This document shows, in pieces, positions 5,278 to 22,045 of a stretch of DNA of 22,045 bases. The notes under the pieces were generated by a model, which made no database searches, was not told the DNA's origin, and was given only the letters and a program-made list of their open reading frames with translations. The stretch covers positions 1-22,045 of the IMG/VR virus record IMGVR_UViG_3300031963_001016. One strand, given 5' to 3'. This DNA comes from a virus. Each line of letters opens with the position of its first letter. Within the stretch, counting starts at the first letter, position 1. Position numbers and translations under genes: made by a program.

Positions 5278-6705
5278 TTAGTTGAATACTAGTGTAATTA
5301 GACCTGAGAAATCAGATAAACCACGCAACCCACCTGGTTGGTTGCTGTGGTTAGTTAGGGCAACACCATATGCTGTACTGTTTGCGAATGCTGACAACCA
5401 ATCACTAGGCATTGACACATACGTTGATGCGTTATCGCCTGATAGATAAGCTGTTGCTTCAGTTCCAGAAAACGACGCAGCCCCTGAAGCCGAAGTTCTG
5501 TCGTGAACTCTAAATGTGAATGTGCCCGTGTTTCCTCTAAATGCAGCTGTAGACCCCGCTCTTTTTACAAATATAGTTCCGCTGTCCGCAGCGAACCCTT
5601 TGCAGGTGTCTGGTAGTTGTGTCCCATAGAAAAACGCACCATAACTCCAGGTTGTTGACCTACGTACGACGGCCTCATCGGCCACAGCAAGGTTAGCCCA
5701 GTTTGTTCCAAATGAATCAGCATCGGTTAGACCAATGTTGTACGTACCAAGTGGTCTTGTCCATTCAAAGAATGAACCTTCACTGGTGAATGTAGTTCCC
5801 ACGTTGTCTACAACGTATATTTGGTATGTAACTTGCCAAGTTTCACCAGAAGGTGTGTTTCTTCTGTTACTTGGAACACTCATAGTTACAGTGCCACCAC
5901 TAAATGAGCCAGATGGTATGGAGTAGGTGCTACCACTGACATACCCAGAGCTTGACCCAATAAACGTTTGAATTACTGTAGCTGAGGCTACACCAGAACC
6001 TACGTCAGTGATAGCACCCCAGGTAACGTTAAAGCTCGACCCATTCTTAGTAGCTGTGGGTCTAGCTGTGTAGGGAGCAACAGGTCTAGTAGACCCAGTT
6101 CCACTCCCAGAACTAGACCTGTCATTGTTTGTAGTTATCGCTCTAACGGTTACAGTATAAGAAGTTTCATTAGCTAATCCACTGATTGTAAAGTTAGCAG
6201 ATGAAACAGTTGTCCAGGTTGACCCAGAGTTCAAACTGTACTCGTACGGGGTAGTGCCGTTTAGGCTGTCTGTACCAGCAGTTCCGTCTGTAACAGCAAC
6301 GTTGATCTTACCAAGATCAGTTGGGTGCATCGTCACAGATACTGATGGTGCTCCAGGAAGAGCTATTGGGCGACCAACCGTAGAGTTGGATTGTTCGGAG
6401 GCTCCAATTGAGTTAACAGCACGTAGCCTTATTGTGTAGCTTGTGCCATTTGTTAGCCCAGTGATGACCACTGGAGACGCAGTGCCAGATCGAGTTGTCC
6501 ATGTTGCACCGTTGTTTAACGAGTACTGATAGTCAGTTGTGGCAGTTGTGCCAACCGTACCAGCAGTAAACGACACCTCTAGGCGACCTCCGGTAGTACC
6601 GTTTAGGTATGAAATACCCGTTATTGTTGGGGCGCCCGGTCTGATACCACTGCCAAGACCTAGGGATCTTGAAGACCCAGAAGAAAAGGTGGATACTAAC
6701 GGCAT
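5278..6705 (-). CDS. Tail protein with fibronectin type III domains
   Basis: After a Ser/Gly-rich start, residues about 22-113 and 118-207 form two fibronectin type III repeats. Each has the family's Trp/Tyr pattern and closing strand (YQYSLNNGATWT...GLTNGTSYTIRLRAVN and YEYSLNSGSTWT...GLANETSYTVTVRAI). Residues about 213-318 look like a third, divergent Ig-like domain. The last 155 residues are a Gly/Ser/Thr-rich beta domain without a match I know. Such Ig-like modules are common on tail and baseplate proteins and are thought to bind surface glycans weakly. The ATG overlaps the stop of the upstream fibre gene (TAATG), so the two are coupled. Confidence 0.85.
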   Translation of the reverse strand: MPLVSTFSSGSSRSLGLGSGIRPGAPTITGISYLNGTTGGRLEVSFTAGTVGTTATTDYQYSLNNGATWTTRSGTASPVVITGLTNGTSYTIRLRAVNSIGASEQSNSTVGRPIALPGAPSVSVTMHPTDLGKINVAVTDGTAGTDSLNGTTPYEYSLNSGSTWTTVSSANFTISGLANETSYTVTVRAITTNNDRSSSGSGTGSTRPVAPYTARPTATKNGSSFNVTWGAITDVGSGVASATVIQTFIGSSSGYVSGSTYSIPSGSFSGGTVTMSVPSNRRNTPSGETWQVTYQIYVVDNVGTTFTSEGSFFEWTRPLGTYNIGLTDADSFGTNWANLAVADEAVVRRSTTWSYGAFFYGTQLPDTCKGFAADSGTIFVKRAGSTAAFRGNTGTFTFRVHDRTSASGAASFSGTEATAYLSGDNASTYVSMPSDWLSAFANSTAYGVALTNHSNQPGGLRGLSDFSGLITLVFN

Positions 6706-7652
6706 TACGCAAACTTAGTCTGTGAGGCAAACACCGTGTATGTATTAGTAGCGGTTTTAATGATAGTGTAAGCGTATATATCTACGCTGTTTGCGCTGCC
6801 AGCTGTAGGTGCTGTGCCGCCTTGCCATTTAGGTGTAACTGCCGAGCCATCAATAGTTATGGATGTTGGGTAATACGGGGTAGACCCGTTTGTTACACCT
6901 ACCGCAACTGTAATGCTTTGGTTATTTGAGAGCATAGAGTTAAGGGTAGTTGAGCCGTTTCCTCGTATGTTGAGTACAGTATTTGTTGTTGCGTTGCTGG
7001 TGTACACCCACGCAGATGAGGTCTTAACATCTATGTTTTGGGTAGACGATGGTGCTGAACCAACAACGTTCCATGATTCTATTGGGGCAGTAAATATTGG
7101 TGTTACTAAAGTTGGCGATGTAAATGTACCGGTAGTAACAGTTGGGTTTGTAACCGTGGCAGTAGATACTGTGCCACCGTTAATAGTGGGGCTTGTTAAA
7201 GTCTTGTTTGTTAGCGTTTCCGATCCAGCAATTGTTGCTCCGTTAACCCAAGTTAAACCAGTAGCTTGAGAAGAATCAGCTGCTAACATTTGACCGTCTG
7301 TGCCAACTGCCAACTTTGTTGGTGTGTTTGCAGCTGAGGCAACCAAGATGTCGCCCTTGGTTGTTAGGGTACCTCGCGTGATCAATCCAGTAGACCCGGA
7401 CGTAGATACAGTGAGTGTAACAACCCCGGAAGTTCCACCACCGGTTAACCCAGTACCAGCTATTACCTCAGTGATTGTTCCTGAGTTAAAAAAAGGTAAG
7501 GACGCCCATGTAGTGCTACCATCTCCAACTTTTAGTTGCTTTGATGTAGTGTCTACACCAATCTCACCAGCTGCCAACACAGCGTTAGTGGTGCCTGCTG
7601 CGTCAGTCCACTGTTGAGTGGTACCACGTCGCATCTGTATTCTAACTGCCAT
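6705..7652 (-). CDS. Tail fibre with Mtd-like N-terminal domain
   Basis: The N-terminus (RIQMRRGTTQQWTDA, then AAGEIGVDTTSKQLKVGDGS) matches the major-tropism-determinant N-terminal/beta-prism type module that attaches many fibres to the tail. Thr/Gly/Ser-rich repeats follow (TLTNKTLTSPTINGG). The C-terminal beta region from about 195 (NIDVKTSSAWVYTSNATTNT, PKWQGGTAPTAGS, YTVFASQTKFA) is a type I know from marine and freshwater phage fibres. Residues around 105-135 (GDILVASAANTPTKLAVGTD) recur in the fibre encoded at 11158-12342. AGGAG precedes the ATG. Likely role: receptor binding or fibre assembly at the virion surface. Confidence 0.85.
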   Translation of the reverse strand: MAVRIQMRRGTTQQWTDAAGTTNAVLAAGEIGVDTTSKQLKVGDGSTTWASLPFFNSGTITEVIAGTGLTGGGTSGVVTLTVSTSGSTGLITRGTLTTKGDILVASAANTPTKLAVGTDGQMLAADSSQATGLTWVNGATIAGSETLTNKTLTSPTINGGTVSTATVTNPTVTTGTFTSPTLVTPIFTAPIESWNVVGSAPSSTQNIDVKTSSAWVYTSNATTNTVLNIRGNGSTTLNSMLSNNQSITVAVGVTNGSTPYYPTSITIDGSAVTPKWQGGTAPTAGSANSVDIYAYTIIKTATNTYTVFASQTKFA

Positions 7653-7664
7653 TTGAGGCTCCTA

Positions 7665-8480
7665 TCAGCCGAACATCTTCTTCCATGTTACAGGACCAAC
7701 GATGCCGTCTGCTTTTAGACCATTAGCTGTTTGCCAAGCTTTTAGGGCTTGCTCTGAACGGGGGCCAAAGTCACCGTCAGCGGTAGCTCCGATGATGGCT
7801 TGTACAAGAGCAGCAGCTGGCCCTTTAGACCCACGCTGAACCGGGGTACCAGGGTAGTCAAACTTCATGGGGCCAGCTTCTGGAGACCCGCCTGAGGGCT
7901 TGATTGCCTCTACAGGGGCCGCTACAGAACCATCTGGGGCCTTATCGCCAAGACAGTACTGCCAGTGCCAGGACTCAAATTCCTTTGAGTTCTTGTCGCC
8001 GGTCTGAAGGTAGAAACCCCACTTAGGGGCGTTGGCGCACATCCACTCAAAGCAAGCTCCACCCATCGACTGAACCTTGCCACCAGCTTCGTAACCGAGG
8101 TCAATAGCAAGACCCCAACCGTGGTTAGAGCCCTTCTTGCCGGTTGGATCTGGGGCAGCACTGGGAGCCTTACCAGGCTTGAGATACCAGGTTTTACCCT
8201 CGTACTGACGAGTAACTTGAGGGTTGCGTCCCTGGTCAGTGGTGGTGTACCGGTCCATGAACATGTTCAACTGGCCCTGGAAAGAACGGTAGTCGCCAAC
8301 ATTCCTAAGCTTGTGACCGGCGGCAAGGGCGGCATCGTACATCTTGTTGAACTGCTCAGCGGCAGGTGCGTACATCAAACCACCGGTTTTTACCTTGGCA
8401 AGAAGCTCCTGCGGAAGCTGACCGTTCTTATGATTTGCTAGGGCTGAGGGAAGTACTAGTTTGATGTATGGGTAATTCAC
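7665..8480 (-). CDS. Endolysin: M15 (VanY-like) peptidase with peptidoglycan-binding domain
   Basis: Residues about 40-178 form an M15 D-Ala-D-Ala carboxypeptidase/L,D-endopeptidase: YRSFQGQ at 64-70, zinc ligands H120 and D127 (SNHGWGLAID), E169 and H172 (ESWHWQY). A Pro/Gly/Ala linker at about 180-205 leads to a C-terminal PG_binding_1 domain at 208-271 (VQRGSKGPAA, DGDFGPRSEQALKAWQ, DGIVGPVTW). It should cut cross-linked peptide stems of host peptidoglycan at lysis. No signal peptide is present, so export needs a holin, and the preceding gene is the likely partner. The GTG start at 8480 overlaps that gene's stop as GTGA, which decides the start. Confidence 0.93.
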   Translation of the reverse strand: MNYPYIKLVLPSALANHKNGQLPQELLAKVKTGGLMYAPAAEQFNKMYDAALAAGHKLRNVGDYRSFQGQLNMFMDRYTTTDQGRNPQVTRQYEGKTWYLKPGKAPSAAPDPTGKKGSNHGWGLAIDLGYEAGGKVQSMGGACFEWMCANAPKWGFYLQTGDKNSKEFESWHWQYCLGDKAPDGSVAAPVEAIKPSGGSPEAGPMKFDYPGTPVQRGSKGPAAALVQAIIGATADGDFGPRSEQALKAWQTANGLKADGIVGPVTWKKMFG

Positions 8481-8832: not shown

Positions 8833-9066
8833 TTATATTAACCCATGAAAGGGTATTCTCATCCCATGCAAATGGGGTATCCCAACTTCTATTGGTAACT
8901 CAAAGTATGCCCGTGCTTCTTCTTCTGTATCAAACCAATACCAACCATCAACAGGATAGGTATGTTCATCTTTTGTTTCTTTGCGCAGTTCGTAATCCTT
9001 GTTGAGCACAAAGTTGGGGCCGTATAGCAGAATGCCGTCGTCGTTTTTGTAGAAGCCGGGGTTCAT
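8833..9066 (-). CDS. 77-aa phage protein of unknown function
   Basis: The start chosen is ATG 9066, which overlaps the stop of the upstream leucine-rich-repeat gene as ATGA. An in-frame ATG at 9081 is also possible. The product has an aromatic, acidic core (DGILLYGPNFVLNKDYELRK, DGWYWFDTEEEARAYF) and a Pro/His-rich end. WYWFDTEEEARAYF resembles a small alpha/beta domain found in various short phage proteins. No family is named with confidence. Coupling to the repeat protein suggests it could be a chaperone or accessory for that tail protein, as small genes behind fibres often are; this is inference. Confidence 0.7.
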   Translation of the reverse strand: MNPGFYKNDDGILLYGPNFVLNKDYELRKETKDEHTYPVDGWYWFDTEEEARAYFELPIEVGIPHLHGMRIPFHGLI

Positions 9067-10790
9067 CCTGTGACCGTCCATCCTTTAGCAGTTGCAATTG
9101 CGGGGTTGTCGGTGGCGGTTCCCCAGTTGCCGGTGACAGACAAGGTTTGGGCGCTGACGGTCGGGAGGGCTGTGTAGTAAGCGTTGAGGTAAGTTGCGCT
9201 TAGTTTGCAGTATTGGATGCTGTGAGTGAATTTCATGTTGGTTGCTGAAATAGATTGCAGGCTGGGACAATTGTTGAACATGCTGGTGTAGGTGCCGCTG
9301 CCGTAAGCGCTTGCGCCGCTTAGCCCTGTCACTGACTGCAAGCCGTAACAATTGTTGAACATCTGAGCCATGTTGTAGACGGCTGCCGTGTTCGCCAGCG
9401 ACACCGACTGCAAGTTGTAACAACTGCTAAACATGCCGCCCATGTCGGTGACGGCCGCCGTGTTCGGCAAAGACACCGACTGCAAGCTGGAACAACTGCT
9501 AAACATGCCGCCCATGTCGGTGACGGCCGCCGTGTTTGTCAGCGACACTGACTGCAAGCTGGAACAACCGCTAAACATGCTGTTCATGTTGGTGACGGCT
9601 GACGTGTTCGTTAGCGACACCGACTGCAAGCTGTAACAACTGCCAAACATCTGGGTCATGTCGGTAACGGCTGCCGTGTTCGGCAAAGACACCGACTGCA
9701 AGCTGTAACAACCGCTAAACATGAAGCTCATGTTGGTAGCGGCTGACGTGTTTGGCAGCGACACCGACTGCAAGCTGGCACAAGTGTCGAACATGAAGCT
9801 CATGTCGGTAACGGCTGCCGTGTTCGGCAAAGACACCGACTGCAAGCTGTAACAACCGCTAAACATCTGGATCATGTCGGTAACGGCTGCCGTGTTTGGC
9901 AGCGACACTGACTGCAAGTTGTAACAACCGCTAAACATGCTGTTCATGTTGGTGGCGGCTGACGTGTTTGTCAGCGACACTGACTGCAAGCTGTAACAAG
10001 CGTTGAACATGCCGCCCATGTCGGTGACGGCTGACGTGTTTGTCAGCGACACTGACTGCAAGCTGGAACAATTGTTGAACATGCTGTTCATGTTGGTGAC
10101 GCTCGACGTGTTCGGCAAAGACACTGACTGCAAGCTGTAACAAGCGTTGAACATAACGCTCATGTTGGTGACGGCTGCCGTGTTCGGCAAAGACACTGAC
10201 TGCAAGGCATTACAATTGCTGAACATGCGGGCCATGCTGGTTATCGAACAGGTGCCGATAAAAGCAAAGTTTTCTAAGCTCAGGTGAGTAATGTTCACAC
10301 TCGATGCAGACATTGTGAAAGATGTGATAGATGAACCCTGGGCGCTTATTTCAACAATTTGCGACGAAGCGGAGGGGGTAATAACACTTGCATGCCTTAG
10401 GTTGAAATTGACCCCTGTAATGTTGCCAGTAATTCGGACTCGAGCTTGGCGATAACCCCTTGCTGACAAGTTCCCATAACTAGCCCACAAGAACTGTTTG
10501 GCGACCGACGTGCCTGAGGCATACGAGTTGCTTGTGCCATTGCCCCAATCAACCGTAAAATTGCCGGATGATGTCGTAACGCTGAACTGAAGAAAGTTTG
10601 AGTCAGGTTGATAAACGGCGTACAGAAAACAGATTTCTGTCGCTGCAACCGGAGTGGTATTTAGCCAATCTGATGGCCTAACCCAAGGCATGCCCTCGGA
10701 GTTGCGAAGGTATTTTTCGGGTCGGCTGACGTTGGGCAGAAAGTCATCGACCACACCAGTGCGTTGAGTGCGTTGGGCAAACCTTGACAT
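9063..10790 (-). CDS. Tail-tip protein with BspA-type leucine-rich repeats (DUF285-like)
   Basis: The 575-residue protein has three parts. Residues 1-50 form a short N-terminal arm that may attach to the virion. Residues about 55-175 are a PKD-like beta domain (FTVDWGNGTSNSY, VRITGNITGVNFN) of the kind seen before BspA/DUF285 repeats. Twelve canonical 24-residue repeats follow at 196-483 (consensus LQSVSLPNTAAVTDM-x-x-MF-x-x-C-x-x), with degenerate units on each side and a C-terminal cap at about 520-575. BspA-type repeats are known from bacterial and protozoan surface adhesins, so a receptor-binding role is likely but inferred. The start overlaps the previous stop (TAATG). There is no signal peptide. 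Confidence 0.85.
   Translation of the reverse strand: MSRFAQRTQRTGVVDDFLPNVSRPEKYLRNSEGMPWVRPSDWLNTTPVAATEICFLYAVYQPDSNFLQFSVTTSSGNFTVDWGNGTSNSYASGTSVAKQFLWASYGNLSARGYRQARVRITGNITGVNFNLRHASVITPSASSQIVEISAQGSSITSFTMSASSVNITHLSLENFAFIGTCSITSMARMFSNCNALQSVSLPNTAAVTNMSVMFNACYSLQSVSLPNTSSVTNMNSMFNNCSSLQSVSLTNTSAVTDMGGMFNACYSLQSVSLTNTSAATNMNSMFSGCYNLQSVSLPNTAAVTDMIQMFSGCYSLQSVSLPNTAAVTDMSFMFDTCASLQSVSLPNTSAATNMSFMFSGCYSLQSVSLPNTAAVTDMTQMFGSCYSLQSVSLTNTSAVTNMNSMFSGCSSLQSVSLTNTAAVTDMGGMFSSCSSLQSVSLPNTAAVTDMGGMFSSCYNLQSVSLANTAAVYNMAQMFNNCYGLQSVTGLSGASAYGSGTYTSMFNNCPSLQSISATNMKFTHSIQYCKLSATYLNAYYTALPTVSAQTLSVTGNWGTATDNPAIATAKGWTVTG
9342..10205 (-). repeat. Tandem array of twelve 72-bp repeats encoding BspA-type LRR units
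   Basis: Identical blocks such as CGACTGCAAG recur at 72-base spacing (for example 9621 and 9693). Each unit codes 24 residues. Positions 1-6, 8-9, 15, 18-19 and 22 (LQSVSL, NT, M, MF, C) are nearly invariant. Positions 16-17 (GG, NS, SF, IQ, TQ, AQ, SV), 20-21 and 23-24 vary between units. The repeats are close enough in DNA to recombine, so copy number may change between related phages. Confidence 0.95.
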
Positions 10791-15650: not shown

Positions 15651-16852
15651 CTAACTTTCCTTGAGCTAGTAGGGGTTGGCATTGCAAAACTGGCTGCAGC
15701 TGCAGCCACTATCACTCTTCGTGCTCCTACAGACACAGCAGACCCTGTTGGTACATAAGTGTCAAATTGGCCACCAAACACGTCCACTTCAGCTTCAAAC
15801 TCTTCTTTTACGTCGTCTGGGGCGTTAGTCAACGCTTCAGAAAGCACTAATGCTTGTTCGTCAGACAGTTCTTCTGGGACAATTGCGTCAATTAGTTCTA
15901 CTATCTGCTCTTCAGATAGTTCATTAAGTACTTCTTCGCTGAATACAGCGGCAATTGATTCCTCGGTTAGTTCACTTACTTCTATAGATTCTACTAGATC
16001 AGTGAGTTCCTCGTCCGATAGGTCGAGGATCTCTTCCTCAGAAACCTGAGGGCCATTCTCCACAGGCACAATCGTCGTTGTGGTCGTGCTGGTAGACGAA
16101 CTGGTTGACTCCGGTATGGAGGTGCTCGTAGACGTTGAGACGACCGTTGTTGTAGTGGTAGTAGAAGGGGGAAGGGTTGGTGGTATCACAGTGGGGACAG
16201 TCGGCAATGAGGGTACTGTCGTAGTGGGCTCCACAGGAACACTGGGTAGTACCGGGGTAACAGATGTAACAGTCGGGGCCACAGTAACAGTCGTAGTTGT
16301 AGGTTCCGTCGTCGTAGTAGTCGGTGCTTCCGTAGTTGTCGAGGTACTCGTGGTAGTTGGGGGTTCCGTGACAGGTACAGTCGTTGTTGGGGCAGTGGTA
16401 GTACTGGTCGTCGTTGAAGTCGTGGATGTTGTAGTTTCCGGCCATGTCGTTGTTGTTTCTGGGATGTTAGTAGGGGTAGTGTTTAGTTCTACAGTATAGC
16501 TAGTACCATACCATGCGTCGGGGTTTCCACAGCACACACCTGTGCGAAGCCTGTATGAGCCCGGTTGGACGGCGACTTCAAGCCACGAATCCAGCCCAAA
16601 GAAATCGTCGTTCTGGGCGAGTAAGACACCATTTGCGTCGTATAGCCACAACATGGAGTCAATCCCGTACTCCCATGCGTAAGTACGTACCTTAAAATCA
16701 GAAGGTTCGGTGTACGTAAACCACAGATCATTAGCCCCAGTTACGGTGTAAGTGGCTAGTTCTGCTTTAGCAGAGCTGACTGGAAATATTGATAAAACTA
16801 TTAAAGACCATTTTGAGATACTTATGATTCTTCCAAATAGCTTTTTAATCAA
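15647..16852 (-). CDS. Secreted Thr-rich surface protein with PPC-like domain
   Basis: Residues 1-30 form a Sec signal peptide (basic start, hydrophobic WSLIVLSIFPVSS, cleavage after AKA). Residues about 31-125 look like a pre-peptidase C-terminal (PPC) beta-sandwich (DSMLWLYDANGVLLAQNDDF, LEVAVQPGSYRLRTG). A Thr/Pro/Ser linker fills about 126-280, an acidic helical repeat about 282-355 (EEILDLSDEELTDLV, EELSDEQALVLSEAL), then VFGGQFDTYVPTG and a hydrophobic stretch with a basic tail (RRVIVAAAAASFA...RKVR) that may anchor it. Such TTT-linker proteins are typical of actinobacterial surfaces. The TTG start is fixed by the TTGA overlap and AAGGAG. It probably acts at the host envelope, but its job is unknown. 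Confidence 0.8.
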   Translation of the reverse strand: MIKKLFGRIISISKWSLIVLSIFPVSSAKAELATYTVTGANDLWFTYTEPSDFKVRTYAWEYGIDSMLWLYDANGVLLAQNDDFFGLDSWLEVAVQPGSYRLRTGVCCGNPDAWYGTSYTVELNTTPTNIPETTTTWPETTTSTTSTTTSTTTAPTTTVPVTEPPTTTSTSTTTEAPTTTTTEPTTTTVTVAPTVTSVTPVLPSVPVEPTTTVPSLPTVPTVIPPTLPPSTTTTTTVVSTSTSTSIPESTSSSTSTTTTTIVPVENGPQVSEEEILDLSDEELTDLVESIEVSELTEESIAAVFSEEVLNELSEEQIVELIDAIVPEELSDEQALVLSEALTNAPDDVKEEFEAEVDVFGGQFDTYVPTGSAVSVGARRVIVAAAAASFAMPTPTSSRKVR

Positions 16853-16980
16853 TATACTCCTTCACAGCATGCGTCACGTCTACCACAGTCTTTGCACTTA
16901 TAGTGTGCGTGTTCTGGAACCAGCTGACCACCACAGTAAACACACTGTGTAGAGGTATCACACTGCTTTTCGTCGCTCAT
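16849..16980 (-). CDS. 43-aa zinc-ribbon protein
   Basis: A frame starting at ATG 16980 (ATGA overlap with the preceding stop) ends at TGA 16849-16851. It has CVYCGG at 13-18 and CKDCG at 29-33, a CxxC-x12-CxxC zinc ribbon, followed by RRDACCEG. Similar mini-ribbons ending in RDxCCxG occur in many environmental phages, usually without known function; nucleic-acid or protein binding is plausible. The stop overlaps the TTG start of the secreted-protein gene as TTGA. The two tight overlaps and the clean metal-binding pattern make this a real gene despite its length. Confidence 0.82.
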   Translation of the reverse strand: MSDEKQCDTSTQCVYCGGQLVPEHAHYKCKDCGRRDACCEGVY

Positions 16981-17141
16981 GAGTACTTAGAAACTATCAA
17001 AGTAACTTCATAAGCTTGTGCGCCAACTTGCTTCACGTTAGTTACTGACACTCTACCCCAACCCTCTGCCGTAGCACGGCGCATAGCAATGCTACGCGCA
17101 TCGTGCATCATTGGAGTGCTGATAGTGTAAGTAACAACCAT
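16977..17141 (-). CDS. 54-aa phage protein of unknown function, possibly leaderless
   Basis: The frame begins at ATG 17141, 17 bases after the tRNA 3' end, and ends in an ATGA overlap with the zinc-ribbon gene. The product (MVVTYTISTPMMHDARSIAM and onward) has a helix with Met/Arg/Ala and two beta strands (GRVSVTNVKQVG, YEVTLIVSKY), which looks like a small alpha/beta fold. No Shine-Dalgarno site is visible. Instead TATAAT lies seven bases upstream of the A of ATG, the spacing of a leaderless transcript, a common form in actinobacteria. Function unknown. Confidence 0.7.
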   Translation of the reverse strand: MVVTYTISTPMMHDARSIAMRRATAEGWGRVSVTNVKQVGAQAYEVTLIVSKYS

Positions 17142-17148
17142 GTTATCA

Positions 17149-17154
17149 ATTATA
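17149..17154 (-). promoter_or_regulatory. Candidate -10 box (TATAAT) for a leaderless transcript
   Basis: A perfect TATAAT on the minus strand lies between the tRNA end and ATG 17141, seven bases from the start codon. That would place initiation at or next to the ATG. No convincing -35 is seen; the best match (TTCAAC, 18-base spacer) is in the tRNA T-arm. Genes 16977-16849 and onward would be its output in addition to read-through. Confidence 0.45.
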
Positions 17155-17158
17155 ACAG

Positions 17159-17232
17159 TGCCGGGTACGGGAGTTGAACCCGTCTACCGGTGTTTATAAG
17201 ACACCTTGCGTCAACCGGACGCATCACCCGGC
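17159..17232 (-). tRNA. tRNA-Ile(UAU)
   Basis: A full cloverleaf is visible on the minus strand: acceptor GCCGGGT/ACCCGGC with discriminator A, D-arm TGCG/CGCA with a GG-containing loop, anticodon arm GGTGT/ACACC with loop CTTATAA, variable GGTAG, and T-arm ACGGG/CCCGT with loop TTCAACT. It totals 74 bases and CCA is not encoded. The anticodon UAU reads AUA. If the host is G+C-rich, AUA is rare there and this tRNA would support phage codon use. Its first base is the last base of the glycosyltransferase stop codon, so it is probably processed from the same transcript. Confidence 0.93.
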
Positions 17233-17987
17233 TAGCGGGGGCGCAACCATGTTTGCGGGCAGCGCCGTGTCTTTATATACTCAGGGTACGTATTGTCAAT
17301 GTCAACAGGTATGAGTTTTTCACCAAGAACATGATACCCATCAGTATACAGCTTCCCACCCATTTGTCGAATATATTCTTGAATATGTGTTTCAGTGTGG
17401 GAAAAAGAAGCTGCTTTTAATTTTATAAACTCTTCGCCACCCAGCCAAGTAAAGTGCCAACCGTTGGCTACCGACCTAGTAGTCGTGCGCATTCGCCTCC
17501 ACGCGCTTATACTCAAGTTATTTAAAGTCTTTTTGTGACTAACTACAATTCCAGTAATTGTTTCTGGGTGTTCCCAATCAACAGCCATAGAATAGAACGC
17601 ATGATCAAGCACGATTATTTCCCCATAACGCAGGGTGTTAGGTAAGTTTGTAATAAACTCTCTAGTCGGTATTTCGTCTACGTCACCGTGTAGGATAATT
17701 GTGTCGTCACTAAGTTCTTGTAAATACGTTTTTAAAGAATCCCTAGCGGCGTACTCCCTTTCCCATGGATTGTCGGTTATTGGGAGTTCTGCTTCAATAT
17801 AGACAATTTTATCGGACCACTCTTTAAACCGATCTAAGTTATTTTTGTATATTAGGGGTTTTGAAGATCCTTGAAAAGTTACTGAAGATTCAATAAGATA
17901 AAACTTGTCAACTACATCGTAGAGCTCAATTAGGCGGCACTCAAGCATGTCAAGTTCCCAGCCAAATAAAAAGCTATCAACAATCAT
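17232..17987 (-). CDS. Glycosyltransferase family 17-like protein
   Basis: The 251-residue protein follows the GT17 (beta-1,4-mannosyl-glycoprotein N-acetylglucosaminyltransferase) pattern. It starts with VDSFLFGWELDMLECRLIEL, then VDKFYLIESSVTFQGSSKPL, and carries the nucleotide-sugar motif HGDVDEIP at 100-107 and GWHFTWLGG near 197-205. It should transfer a sugar from a nucleotide donor, but donor and acceptor are not readable. No membrane span or signal is present, so it acts in the cytoplasm. The ATG overlaps the methyltransferase stop (ATGA), and the stop codon runs into the tRNA. A role in decorating virion or host-surface glycans is inferred. Confidence 0.85.
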   Translation of the reverse strand: MIVDSFLFGWELDMLECRLIELYDVVDKFYLIESSVTFQGSSKPLIYKNNLDRFKEWSDKIVYIEAELPITDNPWEREYAARDSLKTYLQELSDDTIILHGDVDEIPTREFITNLPNTLRYGEIIVLDHAFYSMAVDWEHPETITGIVVSHKKTLNNLSISAWRRMRTTTRSVANGWHFTWLGGEEFIKLKAASFSHTETHIQEYIRQMGGKLYTDGYHVLGEKLIPVDIDNTYPEYIKTRRCPQTWLRPR

Positions 17988-18535
17988 ACATACCGTTTGT
18001 CTATAACAAATATTAGTTCGTCGTTTATGCTATTGCGTCCTGGAACCCATCGGCGGTCAATACCATAGCTGTATGGTTTTAACGAATCAGGGGTTGCCTC
18101 AGTAAGCGCTGGTATCCATTCAGGGTGGGGTATATCCTCTACTACTAGTATTCCATTTGGTGATAACAACGAACTATATTTATTAACAAAATACTGTTGA
18201 GATTCAAGGGTGTGAGGGCCGTCATCTATCATAAAATCAAACTTAATATGTGACACTTTGCCTAGAGCCTCCTCAGAGTACGCGTCTAGGTATACAGGAG
18301 AGATGCGGTCTTCTCCTTTAAATCCGTTGCAGTTGTCGTGAACGTCCATGCAGTGAATCGTTGCGTTTGGAAAGTAGGATTTCCACATGCGTATTGAGCC
18401 GCCCCAATAAATACCAATTTCAAGAACATTCTTTGCGGTGTTTCGTATTGGTTCTAATAGGGCTTCATACACGTGTATATACTGGTGAGCCGACAGTTTG
18501 TCGGTATCTTTAGCAAAATCACATAGTCTTGTCAT
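17984..18535 (-). CDS. Class I SAM-dependent methyltransferase (CmcI/sugar O-methyltransferase type)
   Basis: The 183-residue protein has SAM motif I as VLEIGIYWGGS at 37-47, the ribose-binding acidic residue D64 after a beta strand (TIHCMDVH), a DDGPHT motif at 104-109 and VVEDI at 131-135. The ExG-x-GGS and DDG-x-H pattern is that of metal-dependent cephalosporin-hydroxylase/macrocin-type O-methyltransferases that act on sugars. It is shorter than many members but all core motifs are present. AGAAAGG lies before the ATG. Coupled to a glycosyltransferase, it probably methylates a sugar in the same modification, which can block host defences or receptor competition (inference). Confidence 0.85.
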   Translation of the reverse strand: MTRLCDFAKDTDKLSAHQYIHVYEALLEPIRNTAKNVLEIGIYWGGSIRMWKSYFPNATIHCMDVHDNCNGFKGEDRISPVYLDAYSEEALGKVSHIKFDFMIDDGPHTLESQQYFVNKYSSLLSPNGILVVEDIPHPEWIPALTEATPDSLKPYSYGIDRRWVPGRNSINDELIFVIDKRYV

Positions 18536-18560
18536 TGTAAACCTTTCTAACGTCAGCTCA

Positions 18561-18568
18561 ATTATAGT
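18561..18568. promoter_or_regulatory. Overlapping divergent -10 boxes between methyltransferase and plus-strand glycosyltransferase
   Basis: In the 48-base divergent gap, minus strand TATAAT (18561-18566) faces the methyltransferase and plus strand TATAGT (18563-18568) faces the glycosyltransferase. The minus box leaves room for a leader of about 20 bases containing AGAAAGG. The plus box would place initiation near the AAAGGGG site, so it is weaker. No good -35 is seen on either side. Confidence 0.4.
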
Positions 18569-18583
18569 ACTAAAGGGGTCAAT

Positions 18584-19243
18584 ATGGGAACATTAATTGC
18601 AATTCCAACTAGATCAAATTGGCAAATGTTATCTCCGTTGTTATCTTTTTTAAAAAACTATGATGTTGTCATATACGACAACGGTCACACTTCTGAAGAA
18701 GGCGTATCTGCCATAAACAACCATCAGGGAGAAATAGTCAACGCCCACGGTTGGAAATTCTACAGAATGTGGAACGACGCCTGGAAAAAGGCCCACGAAA
18801 ATGGTTATGAGTCTGTAACTCTATTAAATGATGACATAGAACTTCACGAAAACTCAATAGAGGTGGCCCAACGTGTTTTGATGGATGATCCAACTGTGGG
18901 TATTGTTGGTCTTAATTACAATAGGAGTTTGTCTGACGGATCAGACTTTACCGCTGGGTTTAAACAATGTGATGGATCATATAGAAAATATGGAATTTGG
19001 GGTTGTGCATTTTTAGTAAAAAGTAACCTATGGGGGGTAGTTCCGCCAATAGATGAAGGTTATAACCTATGGTACGGAGATGATGAGCTGTTTGAAAACA
19101 CAATTCGCCATGGTTACAGAATCGGTATAGCTTTAGGAGCTCCAGTTCTTCACTACGCGTCAACTACCGCTTCGGCTCATCCAGAACTGTTAGCTATGAC
19201 CGGAGATGACGCAGAACTGTTCTACAGTAAATTTAATAATTAA
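18584..19243 (+). CDS. GT-A type glycosyltransferase, the only plus-strand gene
   Basis: The 219-residue protein starts with a Rossmann-like strand (GTLIAIPTRSNWQML), then VVIYDNGHT, NDAWKKA and the donor/metal motif LLNDDIEL at 80-87 (NDD in the DxD place). GIWGCAFLVKSNLW and YGDDELFENTIRHGY follow near 138-177, the usual acceptor-side motif of GT2-like enzymes. It is short but complete for the catalytic domain and has no membrane span. AAGGGG lies before the ATG. It is read opposite to every other gene here and its end overlaps the convergent glycosyltransferase by four bases. Inference: transfers a sugar in the same modification pathway. Confidence 0.83.
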   Translation: MGTLIAIPTRSNWQMLSPLLSFLKNYDVVIYDNGHTSEEGVSAINNHQGEIVNAHGWKFYRMWNDAWKKAHENGYESVTLLNDDIELHENSIEVAQRVLMDDPTVGIVGLNYNRSLSDGSDFTAGFKQCDGSYRKYGIWGCAFLVKSNLWGVVPPIDEGYNLWYGDDELFENTIRHGYRIGIALGAPVLHYASTTASAHPELLAMTGDDAELFYSKFNN

Positions 19244-19926
19244 ATTACTACAGTTCTGTTGTACCCTCGGTTTTCTAAAGGAGAAATACACTCTGGGTAG
19301 TGCCTACCAATGCAGTCTTTTCTTACGTACGTTGGGACTCCTAAGAATTCCTTAGCGTCCATAGCGTAGCATGGGTCGTCGCTCAAAGACCAATCCCATC
19401 TCCAGCGAATTCTTGAGTAAACCCTTTTTGAAGCAAGTAAATAACCAGCTGTATTCCAATGTTCTTGTACTGGAAATGGGTATTTGTCAACAACAGGCCC
19501 TGATAGGCAGTATGTGCCCACTTCACCACCTACTAAATCGTGGTTCATTTCAAGAAGTTTGGGGAAAGTCTGCTGATCAGGAGTTGTGTCAGAGTCTAGG
19601 AACAAAATATGACTGGCGTGCCTTGCTAATGCAAAATCTTGCACAATATTCCTTCCAGCGCATATATGCGGGATTCTATTGCCACTAGTAACCTCAGTCC
19701 TGGTGTCATCGTAAGAATATGAGAAATATTGACCGTTTATTAGGTTTAAAGAGTCAATTAATGGCTTAAATGGCTCTAATCCGCGCTTATCTACCTCAAT
19801 AGCAGCAAAATAGCAAACCTCTTCGTTGTGGCTGGCTTTAAGCAATTCAAGGTTAGTAAGCCAACTTGCCCAAAGTGGCTGTTGGTCCATTGCAAAAGCA
19901 GTTAAAGTGGTACCCACTACGATCAT
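19240..19926 (-). CDS. GT-A type glycosyltransferase
   Basis: The product is 228 residues. The N-terminus is VVGTTLTAFAMDQQPLWASW. ICAGRNIVQDFAL at 89-100 and ILFLDSDTTPD at 107-117 give the DxD metal site (D111, D113). EVGTYCLSGP and a C-terminal part with YLLASKRVYSRIRWRWDWSL and a DDP segment resemble GT2-like or phage GT-A proteins that check for a processive or galactosyl acceptor. AGGAGG precedes the ATG by six bases. It converges with the plus-strand enzyme at 19240-19243. Donor and acceptor are unknown. No transmembrane helix is visible, so it works in the host cytoplasm. Confidence 0.82.
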   Translation of the reverse strand: MIVVGTTLTAFAMDQQPLWASWLTNLELLKASHNEEVCYFAAIEVDKRGLEPFKPLIDSLNLINGQYFSYSYDDTRTEVTSGNRIPHICAGRNIVQDFALARHASHILFLDSDTTPDQQTFPKLLEMNHDLVGGEVGTYCLSGPVVDKYPFPVQEHWNTAGYLLASKRVYSRIRWRWDWSLSDDPCYAMDAKEFLGVPTYVRKDCIGRHYPECISPLENRGYNRTVVI

Positions 19927-19991
19927 TATGCCTCCTAGTTTAACTATTTATGATTTTTAAGCAATTTTTAGCCTAAAACACCTAATTTACA

Positions 19992-20483
19992 CTATTTTTC
20001 CTCGTTTGCTGACTGTTCAAGGGCTTTTATACCCTCTTGAACGTCATCATACTGCCTAACTGCTGTCTTTGTTATGTCACCAGTGGGTCCAGCTAGTCGA
20101 CTTACCATACCGCGCTCGACCATTTCGGCTCTTTTACGAGATGAAACACCCCAAAATGGTGATTTAACAGGCCCTTTAGGCCCAATTATGTTAACTTGCC
20201 AGTCAGATGAGCCCTCATAAAGTGGTGTTATGTGAGTTTTTACGGATGGTTGATCTAGTGAGTCTTCACCAATAGCGTATTCTCGGTGTGTTCTTTGCCC
20301 ATCATCCGATGTTAAGTCTCTAACCATCGTAAAATGCATGTCCTGAGCGTAGAATTGTCGTGGGTTTAGAGGAGAAACCTTCTTACGCCCACTCATGCTC
20401 GGGTGGTTACGCCTGCGCACTTCCTGAGGAGTAGACTCATCTGGCTCGTCGTCACCTTCGTCGTCGTCAAATGTTGTGTTCAT
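19992..20483 (-). CDS. 163-aa phage protein of unknown function
   Basis: The N-terminus is acidic and disordered (TFDDDEGDDEPDESTPQEVR), followed by a basic stretch (RRRNHPSMSGRKKVSPLNPR). A folded-looking middle with QDMHFTMVRDLTSD, HITPLYEG and WQVNIIGPKGPVK comes next, then a helical basic end. No motif is recognised. AAGGA lies before the ATG. The acidic/basic disordered arm is typical of phage scaffolding, packaging or DNA-binding accessory proteins, but this is too general to assign. It follows two other unknown genes in what looks like one transcript. Confidence 0.7.
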   Translation of the reverse strand: MNTTFDDDEGDDEPDESTPQEVRRRNHPSMSGRKKVSPLNPRQFYAQDMHFTMVRDLTSDDGQRTHREYAIGEDSLDQPSVKTHITPLYEGSSDWQVNIIGPKGPVKSPFWGVSSRKRAEMVERGMVSRLAGPTGDITKTAVRQYDDVQEGIKALEQSANEEK

Positions 20484-20504
20484 AGCTCATCCTTAATACA
20501 ATAA

Positions 20505-20861
20505 TTAGCAATTTCCGCCGTTACACGCGCAGTTGTTGCTTCCGTGAGAAAAGCTCCCGTATCTGGTGTTAGTAGAACATGCTTTCCAGTCAGGTTTGTT
20601 AATAACGTTACCTTCATCGTCCATGCGGTCCACATCAGGGTTGGTCCTGTAGAACCACTCAGCATTCAGTTTGGCGTCATTTGCAGGCTTAGACAATGCT
20701 TCATAGCGTTTATTATGCTCAGCTATCTCTTTACGCTTCTTACCAATTAGATTGTGTTCAGTAATATCATTAATTCGACTAGGGTTATAACCTTTATACG
20801 GGTCGTCACGGTACCCAGCCTTCAATACTTCTTCATCAGACAGTTTTTTCATTTTAGCCAT
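20505..20861 (-). CDS. 118-aa phage protein of unknown function
   Basis: The start was set at ATG 20861 (MAKMKKLSDEEVLKAGYRDD) with GAGG five bases upstream, in preference to an upstream TTG at 20876. The product is polar, helical and rich in Lys/Asn/Asp, and ends in a Cys/Asn/Gly-rich tail (NNCACNGGNC) with three Cys that might bind a metal or form disulphides. An alternative frame covers its 3' end (down to 20480) and ends in an ATGA overlap with the next gene. I treat that as chance because no slippery site is evident. Function unknown. Confidence 0.68.
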   Translation of the reverse strand: MAKMKKLSDEEVLKAGYRDDPYKGYNPSRINDITEHNLIGKKRKEIAEHNKRYEALSKPANDAKLNAEWFYRTNPDVDRMDDEGNVINKPDWKACSTNTRYGSFSHGSNNCACNGGNC

Positions 20862-20913
20862 AATCGCCTCAGTCAAACCCGCAAATTTTTACTACCCCAA
20901 CTATACTTCAATC

Positions 20914-21759
20914 TCACGTTGGGAAGTATTCGTCTGGGTGGATCTTGGCCCAAGTACCAGTGCTAAGGTCAACTACGTCTTCTGCAACATCGTGACCTCT
21001 ACGAGATTGCTGTATTATTTTAAGGAATTGTGGACTAAACCTCTCTGGGTCCCAACCTCTCAGCTGTGGCTGATGTACAGGGTTTGCTAATGCGTGTTCC
21101 ATTATTTCACGAGCTCTTGGAGAACTGGGGTCGCGCAGAACCCCCCGTACTCTGTGTCTTAACTCGCCCATGGCCTCTCTAAAGTTACTACTCTGTGTGT
21201 CATCTCCAAATGCTTGCCACTTTGCGTCTTCCACAGTATACCCCCAATGCGGGTCGTGCTCGGCAGCAATAAGTTTTGCGGTAAACGCATCATGTTCGTT
21301 TCTCCACCCAGGCTCTCCAGGTATGATATCTATATGATGGGTATATGGCATTCTAGTAGATATTAAGTGCGTACTGGCAGATTCGACATCTTTATCTACA
21401 TTCCCCGACCTAACACGGTTGGTGTAGTCGTTTACGTCTTTGTAGCCGAAACGTAAAGCTGCAGTGTTAGCCTCATCTAGGTGACCTGATGTGTGGATCA
21501 GCCCTTCATCATGTTCGTCAACCCTGATCAGATTGCTAGGTACGTGTTGTTCCCCTCTAGTTGGAGAAATATACATTCGTTTGTTACTAAATACTGGGTG
21601 AGTAGAAGCAACATTCCCCATACCAGAGGTAAATGAGGTTAGTCTACGTATATGAGCTTCAGGGTCAGCGAGACGGAAAGTTCTGTTACGATCAAATGAC
21701 CCCCCAAAGTCATCAGCATCAACCCAGGTTTCTTTACTATTCCTCAGTAATTCAGCCAT
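20914..21759 (-). CDS. 281-aa phage protein of unknown function
   Basis: AGGAGG lies seven bases before the ATG. The 281-residue product is soluble, rich in His, Arg, Asp and Glu, with no signal peptide or transmembrane segment. Segments such as GDDTQSSNFREAMGELRHRV, REIMEHALANPVHQPQLRGW and FLKIIQQSRRGHDVAEDVVD look helical. I recognise no catalytic motif. It is the first gene of the leftward series visible here and has a TATAAT-type promoter 27 bases upstream. Its length and lack of disorder suggest an enzyme-like or virion protein. No name can be justified. Confidence 0.72.
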   Translation of the reverse strand: MAELLRNSKETWVDADDFGGSFDRNRTFRLADPEAHIRRLTSFTSGMGNVASTHPVFSNKRMYISPTRGEQHVPSNLIRVDEHDEGLIHTSGHLDEANTAALRFGYKDVNDYTNRVRSGNVDKDVESASTHLISTRMPYTHHIDIIPGEPGWRNEHDAFTAKLIAAEHDPHWGYTVEDAKWQAFGDDTQSSNFREAMGELRHRVRGVLRDPSSPRAREIMEHALANPVHQPQLRGWDPERFSPQFLKIIQQSRRGHDVAEDVVDLSTGTWAKIHPDEYFPT

Positions 21760-21785
21760 GGTTTACCTCCTAATAGAATAGGTCT

Positions 21786-21791
21786 ATTATA
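21786..21791 (-). promoter_or_regulatory. Candidate -10 box (TATAAT) of the leftward operon
   Basis: The minus strand carries TATAAT 26 bases before ATG 21759, with AGGAGG between them, a good layout for a promoter of the 281-aa gene and those after it. No clear -35 is seen at 17 bases. The same bases contain a plus-strand TATTAT (21785-21790) with TTTACC 17 bases upstream (21762-21767), so the site could also fire rightward into the structured region. Confidence 0.5.
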
Positions 21792-21796
21792 GCTCA

Positions 21797-22045
21797 CTTG
21801 TCGGTTGGGCGGCTTTACGATGTAACCGGTTAAGTTGCAGAATAGGGCTATTGCGTAGTTGGGTGCTCATTGGGGGCTGGGCCCTACGGGGGAGACGTCT
21901 GGCTGGTCGTCATAATGGTGGTAGGTAGGGAACACGCACCTAGCGACGCAAGTCGCGTAGCACGCAAGTGCTTGGTCGTGCCCCCACTTAGGCTCATTCC
22001 CGAGCCGAATAATGCCTACGGGCAGGAAGGTATGGCAACTCATGT
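21797..22045 (+). ncRNA. Candidate large structured RNA, cut by the right window edge
   Basis: This G+C-rich stretch (about 59 percent by my count over 21841-22020, against about 42 percent in nearby coding DNA) has no convincing gene. On the plus strand it forms hairpins with stable-loop signatures. These are GCGAC-GCAA-GTCGC (21943-21956), AGCAC-GCAA-GTGCT (21959-21972), TGCC-TACG-GGCA (22013-22024), CCC-TACG-GGG (21882-21891) and GGCTC/GAGCC (21991-22006). Two longer-range helices also fit: CGGTT/AACCG (21802-21828) and TGGGGGC/GCCCCCA (21871-21877 with 21980-21986). GNRA and UNCG loops appear only in the plus-strand reading. Large ornate phage RNAs (GOLLD, ROOL) are possible relatives, but I cannot match a family. 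A 58-codon minus-strand frame (21867-22043) is the alternative. Confidence 0.5.

Follow-up and report, generated by a model that had tools for sequence, protein, structure and literature searches.

The right edge of the analysed window, a virus record of 22,045 bases, is most likely a divergent promoter and leader of an ordinary kind, though rich in hairpins: positions 21760-22041 probably form a phage control region with two promoters directed outward and an mRNA leader on the plus strand. The hairpins of this leader are not a conserved RNA machine. More than the window edge, a structured RNA candidate of about 720 nt, located 1.86 kb past the window end and containing a tRNA-Arg(TCT) within its predicted fold, deserves follow-up.

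The locus and its flanking genes

The window contains a terminase large subunit gene and one tRNA-Ile, and its other phage genes are mostly encoded on the minus strand. One of them, a minus-strand gene of 575 aa at 9063-10790, is built from numerous, almost identical repeats of the form LQSVSLPNTAAVTDM-MF-C and is possibly a receptor-binding or surface protein.

The stretch 21785-22045, which the original prediction had described as a multi-hairpin RNA at the right edge, is not the end of the phage. The rightward extension of the contig proposed there as a check was obtained from locus L018, which shares 16845-22045 of the window (5,201 bases) at 100% identity, proceeds into gene A and carries the sequence on for 16 kb (window-equivalent coordinates are L018 positions plus 16844). 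The stretch is flanked by divergent genes, a leftward operon with its ATG at 21759 and the rightward gene A with its ATG at 22042, so that both flanking genes are transcribed outward and, from the gene order on both sides, the region is the gap between them. The following features were assigned:

20914-21759, minus strand: gene that heads the leftward operon, 281 aa, no assigned function (open reading frame; six related loci)
21763-21771, minus strand: ribosome-binding site of the leftward gene, AGGAGGTAA (sequence)
21776-21791, minus strand: leftward promoter element TATAATAGACCTATTC, with palindrome AATAGGTCTATT at 21777-21788 (seven-row alignment)
21798-21826, plus strand: sigma-70-like hexamers TTGTCG-N17-TGTAAC, candidate promoter of gene A (comparison with relatives)
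21833-22041, plus strand: predicted 5' leader, about 209 nt, of the mRNA for gene A (hexamer position and ATG of gene A; start placed about 7 nt past the -10)
21840-21889, plus strand: conserved first part of the leader, with the second palindrome AATAGGGCTATT at 21841-21852 (alignment)
21894-22030, plus strand: lineage-variable hairpin part of the leader (GCAA stems 21943-21956 and 21959-21972; stems 21991-22006 and 22014-22023)
22042-22045, plus strand: start of gene A (196 aa, extending beyond the window), the first rightward gene (L009 3221-3811)

Relatives of the 281-aa gene are present in other lineages. Its product has no PHROG match, a single Pfam match (ABATE) that is below threshold (E 0.017), and no match in a protein search of INPHARED phages. 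Six other lineages carry a relative of gene A in this position, with 20-34% identity; the L025 gene located there shows no detectable kinship to gene A. The copy of gene A in the phage of the window matches nothing in Pfam up to E 0.1, and its PHROG matches are all weak (E 0.075 and 0.093). Its AlphaFold model (196 aa, seven sequences, mean pLDDT 77.6, pTM 0.61) has no match in the viral or PDB libraries at E <= 0.001. Just 3' of gene A a terminator-like hairpin with a T-rich tail can be recognised by eye.

Six related loci were found through the 281-aa gene and sixteen through a MoxR-like ATPase gene beginning 4.8 kb beyond the window's right end; a repeated MoxR search with a wider alignment yielded no new contigs. 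A further candidate from a motif scan, L015, was dropped, having no similarity to L009. The MoxR-like AAA ATPase gene (Pfam AAA_5, E 3e-12) and the long gene after it, with a sub-threshold VWA match (E 0.0028), occupy positions 8024-11669 of L009 and are a recurrent pair in these phages.

Predicted promoter elements and palindromes

The operon headed by the 281-aa gene would be driven leftward by the -10-type promoter TATAATAGACCTATTC, with the -10 at 21786-21791. Within this element GAATAGGTCTAT is invariant in all seven aligned rows, and the minus-strand TATAAT is intact in six of the seven. In the window and in L023, L025, L026, L028 and L030 the element is followed, on the minus strand, by a purine-rich site and an ATG. 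The motif TATAATAG-N2-CTAT occurs in 0-2 copies per record, as counted in six records of 68.6-94.0 kb.

A plus-strand promoter, TTTACC-N17-TATTAT, had been proposed directly before the hairpins. Its letters are present. Read on the opposite strand they spell the leftward ribosome-binding site and -10, and for this reason the promoter was rejected; its TTTACC part is not conserved in relatives. Another pair of hexamers is found further right. Among seven aligned lineages the plus-strand -35 reads TTGACG in four and TTAACG, TTTACG and TTGTCG in one each, the last being the window, and 17 bases later TATAAC (four lineages) or TGTAAC (three) follows. Promoter-like elements are thus conserved among relatives on both sides, the rightward one being weak in the window (four of six positions in each hexamer) and broken in L019, where a gene is inserted between the two palindromes. 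Since the promoter scan did not report the window's rightward hexamers, the rightward promoter rests on comparison.

Transcription of the plus strand, opposite to the operon, is probable, as the original prediction held, in the form of a 5' leader, judging from the gene order and the conserved hexamers. Starting from about 21833, the predicted mRNA would have a leader of about 209 nt before gene A. The palindrome AATAG-N2-CTATT is conserved at both the leftward and the rightward element. It overlaps the leftward -10 and sits just past the presumed rightward start, so that one regulator could serve both promoters. The conserved first 50 nt or so of the leader would probably represent an operator together with early transcribed sequence, and the later hairpins, which turn over between lineages, may influence mRNA stability or translation of gene A.

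Divergent promoter/operator regions are known from tailed phages. The region studied here shares with them two gene blocks pointing outward from one intergenic region, -10-like elements and a repeated palindrome. It differs in that its transcription starts and its regulator are predicted ones and in that its DNA, at the window end, has no match among 50,697 phage records (INPHARED).

Hairpins, helices and composition

The structural elements that had suggested a folded RNA are present in the sequence. These include two GCAA-capped hairpins, GCGAC-GCAA-GTCGC (21943-21956) and AGCAC-GCAA-GTGCT (21959-21972), two TACG-capped ones, CCC-TACG-GGG (loop from 21885) and GCC-TACG-GGC (22014-22023), and the 7-bp helix TGGGGGC/GCCCCCA (21871-21877 with 21980-21986). 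The second pairing, TTGGGTGC/GCACCTAG (21859-21866 with 21936-21943), which would cross the long helix, can be formed, but only with the help of G-U pairs. The rise in G+C was also found, 0.556 against 0.466 in the neighbouring gene; among 436 windows of 261 nt, 17 have a G+C content as high.

Measured against shuffled sequences, these elements are for the most part unexceptional. Tetraloop-capped 5-bp stems are mildly above chance (two against 0.21 expected, with 10 of 500 shuffles reaching two), while the three 5-bp stems with loops of 3-8 (1.43 expected; 92 of 500 shuffles reach three) and the perfect 7-bp helix (found in 71 of 100 shuffles) are not above chance. The stability of the whole region is unremarkable on either strand (z -0.75 plus, -0.95 minus), as is that of 21838-22045 (plus strand, z -0.34).

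Comparison of the leader among relatives

Nine leaders were aligned. The alignment leaves out L003, L004, L009, L016 and L018, which are identical to the window there, L001, which is the window itself, L005, which has the same leader block as L006, and L022 together with further loci whose contigs begin only to the right of the leader; L006, L012 and L019 belong to a single contig. Roughly the first 50 nt are well conserved over the nine leaders and consist of the palindrome and then a G-rich block ending in CTAC; positions 21839-21893 have 93% identity to L006/L012. This part includes the G-run that forms one arm of the 7-bp long-range helix. Beyond it, both the hairpins and the length (130 to 208 nt as aligned) vary among lineages.

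Comparison of the window with its near-twin L002/L008 revealed eight differences over 3,221 bases, all in the intergenic region (window 21820-21905). Seven of them cluster within about 11 bases around 21895-21905, which would fit the replacement of a short segment.

No conserved fold was found in the leader. The RNAalifold consensus of the nine sequences has 15 pairs and -1.6 kcal/mol, and its z value against column shuffles is +0.53; that of window, L031 and L019 is -0.22. Loss of pairing in homologues had been named beforehand as evidence against a folded RNA, and most relatives do lose the pairing; a fold kept with compensatory changes, as expected of a structured RNA class, is not seen in the window region. 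The helices of the original prediction have 48% to 80% of cells paired per helix over the nine leaders. Taken together, the helices have 65.0% of cells paired (56.0% in shuffles), 15 cells with changes on both sides (7.4 in shuffles) and a covariation score of 0.128 (0.074 in shuffles), and none of 500 shuffles reaches any of these values. The excess is less clear for pairs with both sides changed, of which there are 8 (5.6 in shuffles; 17 of 500 attain this), and the figure for further pair types is reached by 133 of 500. The structure for this count was taken from one row, which favours the helix set.

The leader could still be a fast-evolving cis-regulatory RNA, in which the G-run helix and the hairpins control gene A and structure rather than sequence is selected. 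Such a role is unlikely on the present comparison. The G-run arm has a better partner than in shuffles in three leaders, those of the window (p 0.028), of its near-twin L002 (p 0.040) and of L019 (p 0.040), but no significant one in L031, L028, L030, L023, L026 and L025 (p 0.15-0.77). The leaders of L028, L030 and L023 jointly beat column shuffles (z -3.4), a value of little weight since it lies within the range of protein-coding controls in the same test (z -4.18, -3.29 and +0.45), where values near -3 or -4 mean little. Single leaders of L028, L023 and L025 are stable (z -2.5, -2.5 and -2.8), but their minus strands are about equally so (z -2.2, -2.2 and -2.5). By eye, the two GCAA stems of the window look like a tandem copy with one base lost on both sides, which is a hint that the stems matter.

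It is very improbable that 21785-22045 is a free-standing structured RNA, either a relative of GOLLD or ROOL or a new class, as the hairpins and G+C content had led the original prediction to propose. This reading is largely refuted by the relatives that lose the pairing. With GOLLD (RF02032) the region has only hairpins in common, and at about 260 nt it is much shorter than GOLLD or ROOL. Membership of GOLLD, ROOL or another Rfam family is ruled out for the window region, where no covariance model matched: no hit reached the gathering threshold, and the only two hits up to E 10 for 21500-22045 are sub-threshold and left of the region. In addition, a gene starts at 22042, and no terminator-like site was found in 21600-22045. 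The suggestion that a small protein is encoded here can hardly be credited: the frames 21867-22043 (minus) and 21870-22043 (plus) are both open, but the minus frame has no PHROG match, L012 repeats just its last few residues, over the conserved DNA block, and the many gaps in the aligned leaders and their range of lengths also speak against it. The divergent promoter and leader remains the preferred reading of the window edge.

A candidate large RNA enclosing a tRNA beyond the window

To the right of gene A, in plus orientation, a large structured RNA candidate was identified at window-equivalent positions of about 23909-24624. Copies are present in three lineages:

L018, about 7065-7780
L019, about 6455-7220
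L031, about 6834-7560

No long open frames are present, the longest run between stops being 58 codons in six frames (L018 7057-7592). The consensus fold comprises 176 pairs including the tRNA, of which 42 are changed on both sides, against 17.9 in shuffles (reached by 0 of 500), and sliding the partners lowers this number to 3-12. After removal of the tRNA columns the z value is -11.2 on the plus strand and -7.2 on the minus strand, the minus strands of two other elements described below scoring likewise (-7.6 for the sister-clade RNA and -8.4 for the L018 5869-6277 block). Some of the predicted helices pair the 5' flank of the tRNA with its 3' flank. Enclosure of the tRNA is less well supported than the local stems, because the long-range helices H6 and H8 vary on one side at most. 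Taken together, the comparative case for a large RNA appears strong but not final, being built on three lineages with a structure fitted to them.

PMC12286853 places the genes for GOLLD and ROOL in phages and prophages, frequently close to tRNA islands, and describes both RNAs as forming nanocages, with tRNAs sometimes located in the GOLLD linker; PMC6582537 describes a pseudo-tRNA within a mycobacterial GOLLD gene. The candidate RNA has the corresponding GOLLD feature, proximity to tRNA genes and sometimes a tRNA inside, through its tRNA-Arg(TCT), and it resembles ROOL (RF03087) as a large phage RNA near tRNA genes (PMC12286853). By the Rfam models it differs from GOLLD and apparently also from ROOL. 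In a cmscan with all families tRNA was the one family to reach threshold on it, and neither GOLLD nor ROOL matched. The GOLLD model had no match at E <= 10 in seven records, in a search whose control rang in 5 of 14 genomes, none over the cut-off; the ROOL model had none in the same number of records, the control genomes also being silent. Other long phage RNAs have been described in PMC7567579 and PMC9241854; the long non-coding RNAs of ICP1 and phage K likewise come from phage regions without ORFs, near tRNA genes in phage K. Those RNAs were seen as transcripts, whereas the RNA beyond the window is known here from comparative structure.

No similarity was found by DNA search between the large RNA without tRNA and 3' part and the 50,697 INPHARED records; with a query containing the tRNA-Arg, the best 20 of 1293 matching records match only at the tRNA. 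Bacterial genome contigs gave no match by MoxR alignment and no exact match to one motif of the large RNA. A literature search of titles and abstract openings, with most subscription journals outside its coverage, found no description of it.

A candidate sister-clade RNA and a conserved intergenic block

In six more distant relatives another structured RNA candidate directly precedes the syntenic tRNA-Arg:

L023, 3130-3610
L025, 6960-7450
L026, 7330-7800
L028, 4590-5090
L030, 7510-8005
L022, 660-1136

Its fold has 87 pairs, 16 of them changed on both sides (reached by 0 of 500 shuffles), while further pair types are not above shuffles (441 of 500 reach the value); z is -6.0 and -7.6 on the two strands. 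Model R1, built on 148 positions of the large RNA, did not match the sister-clade RNA at E up to 5, and gave two weak hits elsewhere, in G001 and G002 (13.1 and 15.3 bits). Eight records with short matches to the sister-clade RNA (E 0.4) were taken as chance.

Between gene A and the next gene, L018 5869-6277 (window-equivalent about 22713-23121) contains some 410 conserved bases with 90% identity to L012. This block has repeated palindromes like TGTGACAAATGTCACA, which we take to be CRP-like, and scores z -10.4 and -8.4 on the two strands. Possible readings are an origin, an array of operators or a segment of an RNA.

Significance of the two regions

The window edge illustrates that a hairpin-rich phage leader can mimic a structured RNA class, a question that comparison with relatives settles. 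That a large tRNA-linked RNA exists in the same phage population is a coincidence with respect to the guess made from the window edge. We consider it likely that these phages carry an undescribed family of large ornate RNAs with a tRNA-Arg(TCT) built in, neither GOLLD nor ROOL by the Rfam models, and a second structured RNA at the same place in the sister clade. If this is true, it would be an independent large-RNA family beside GOLLD and ROOL, and with its enclosed tRNA this family would make it possible to ask whether the holding of phage tRNAs is a feature common to such RNAs.
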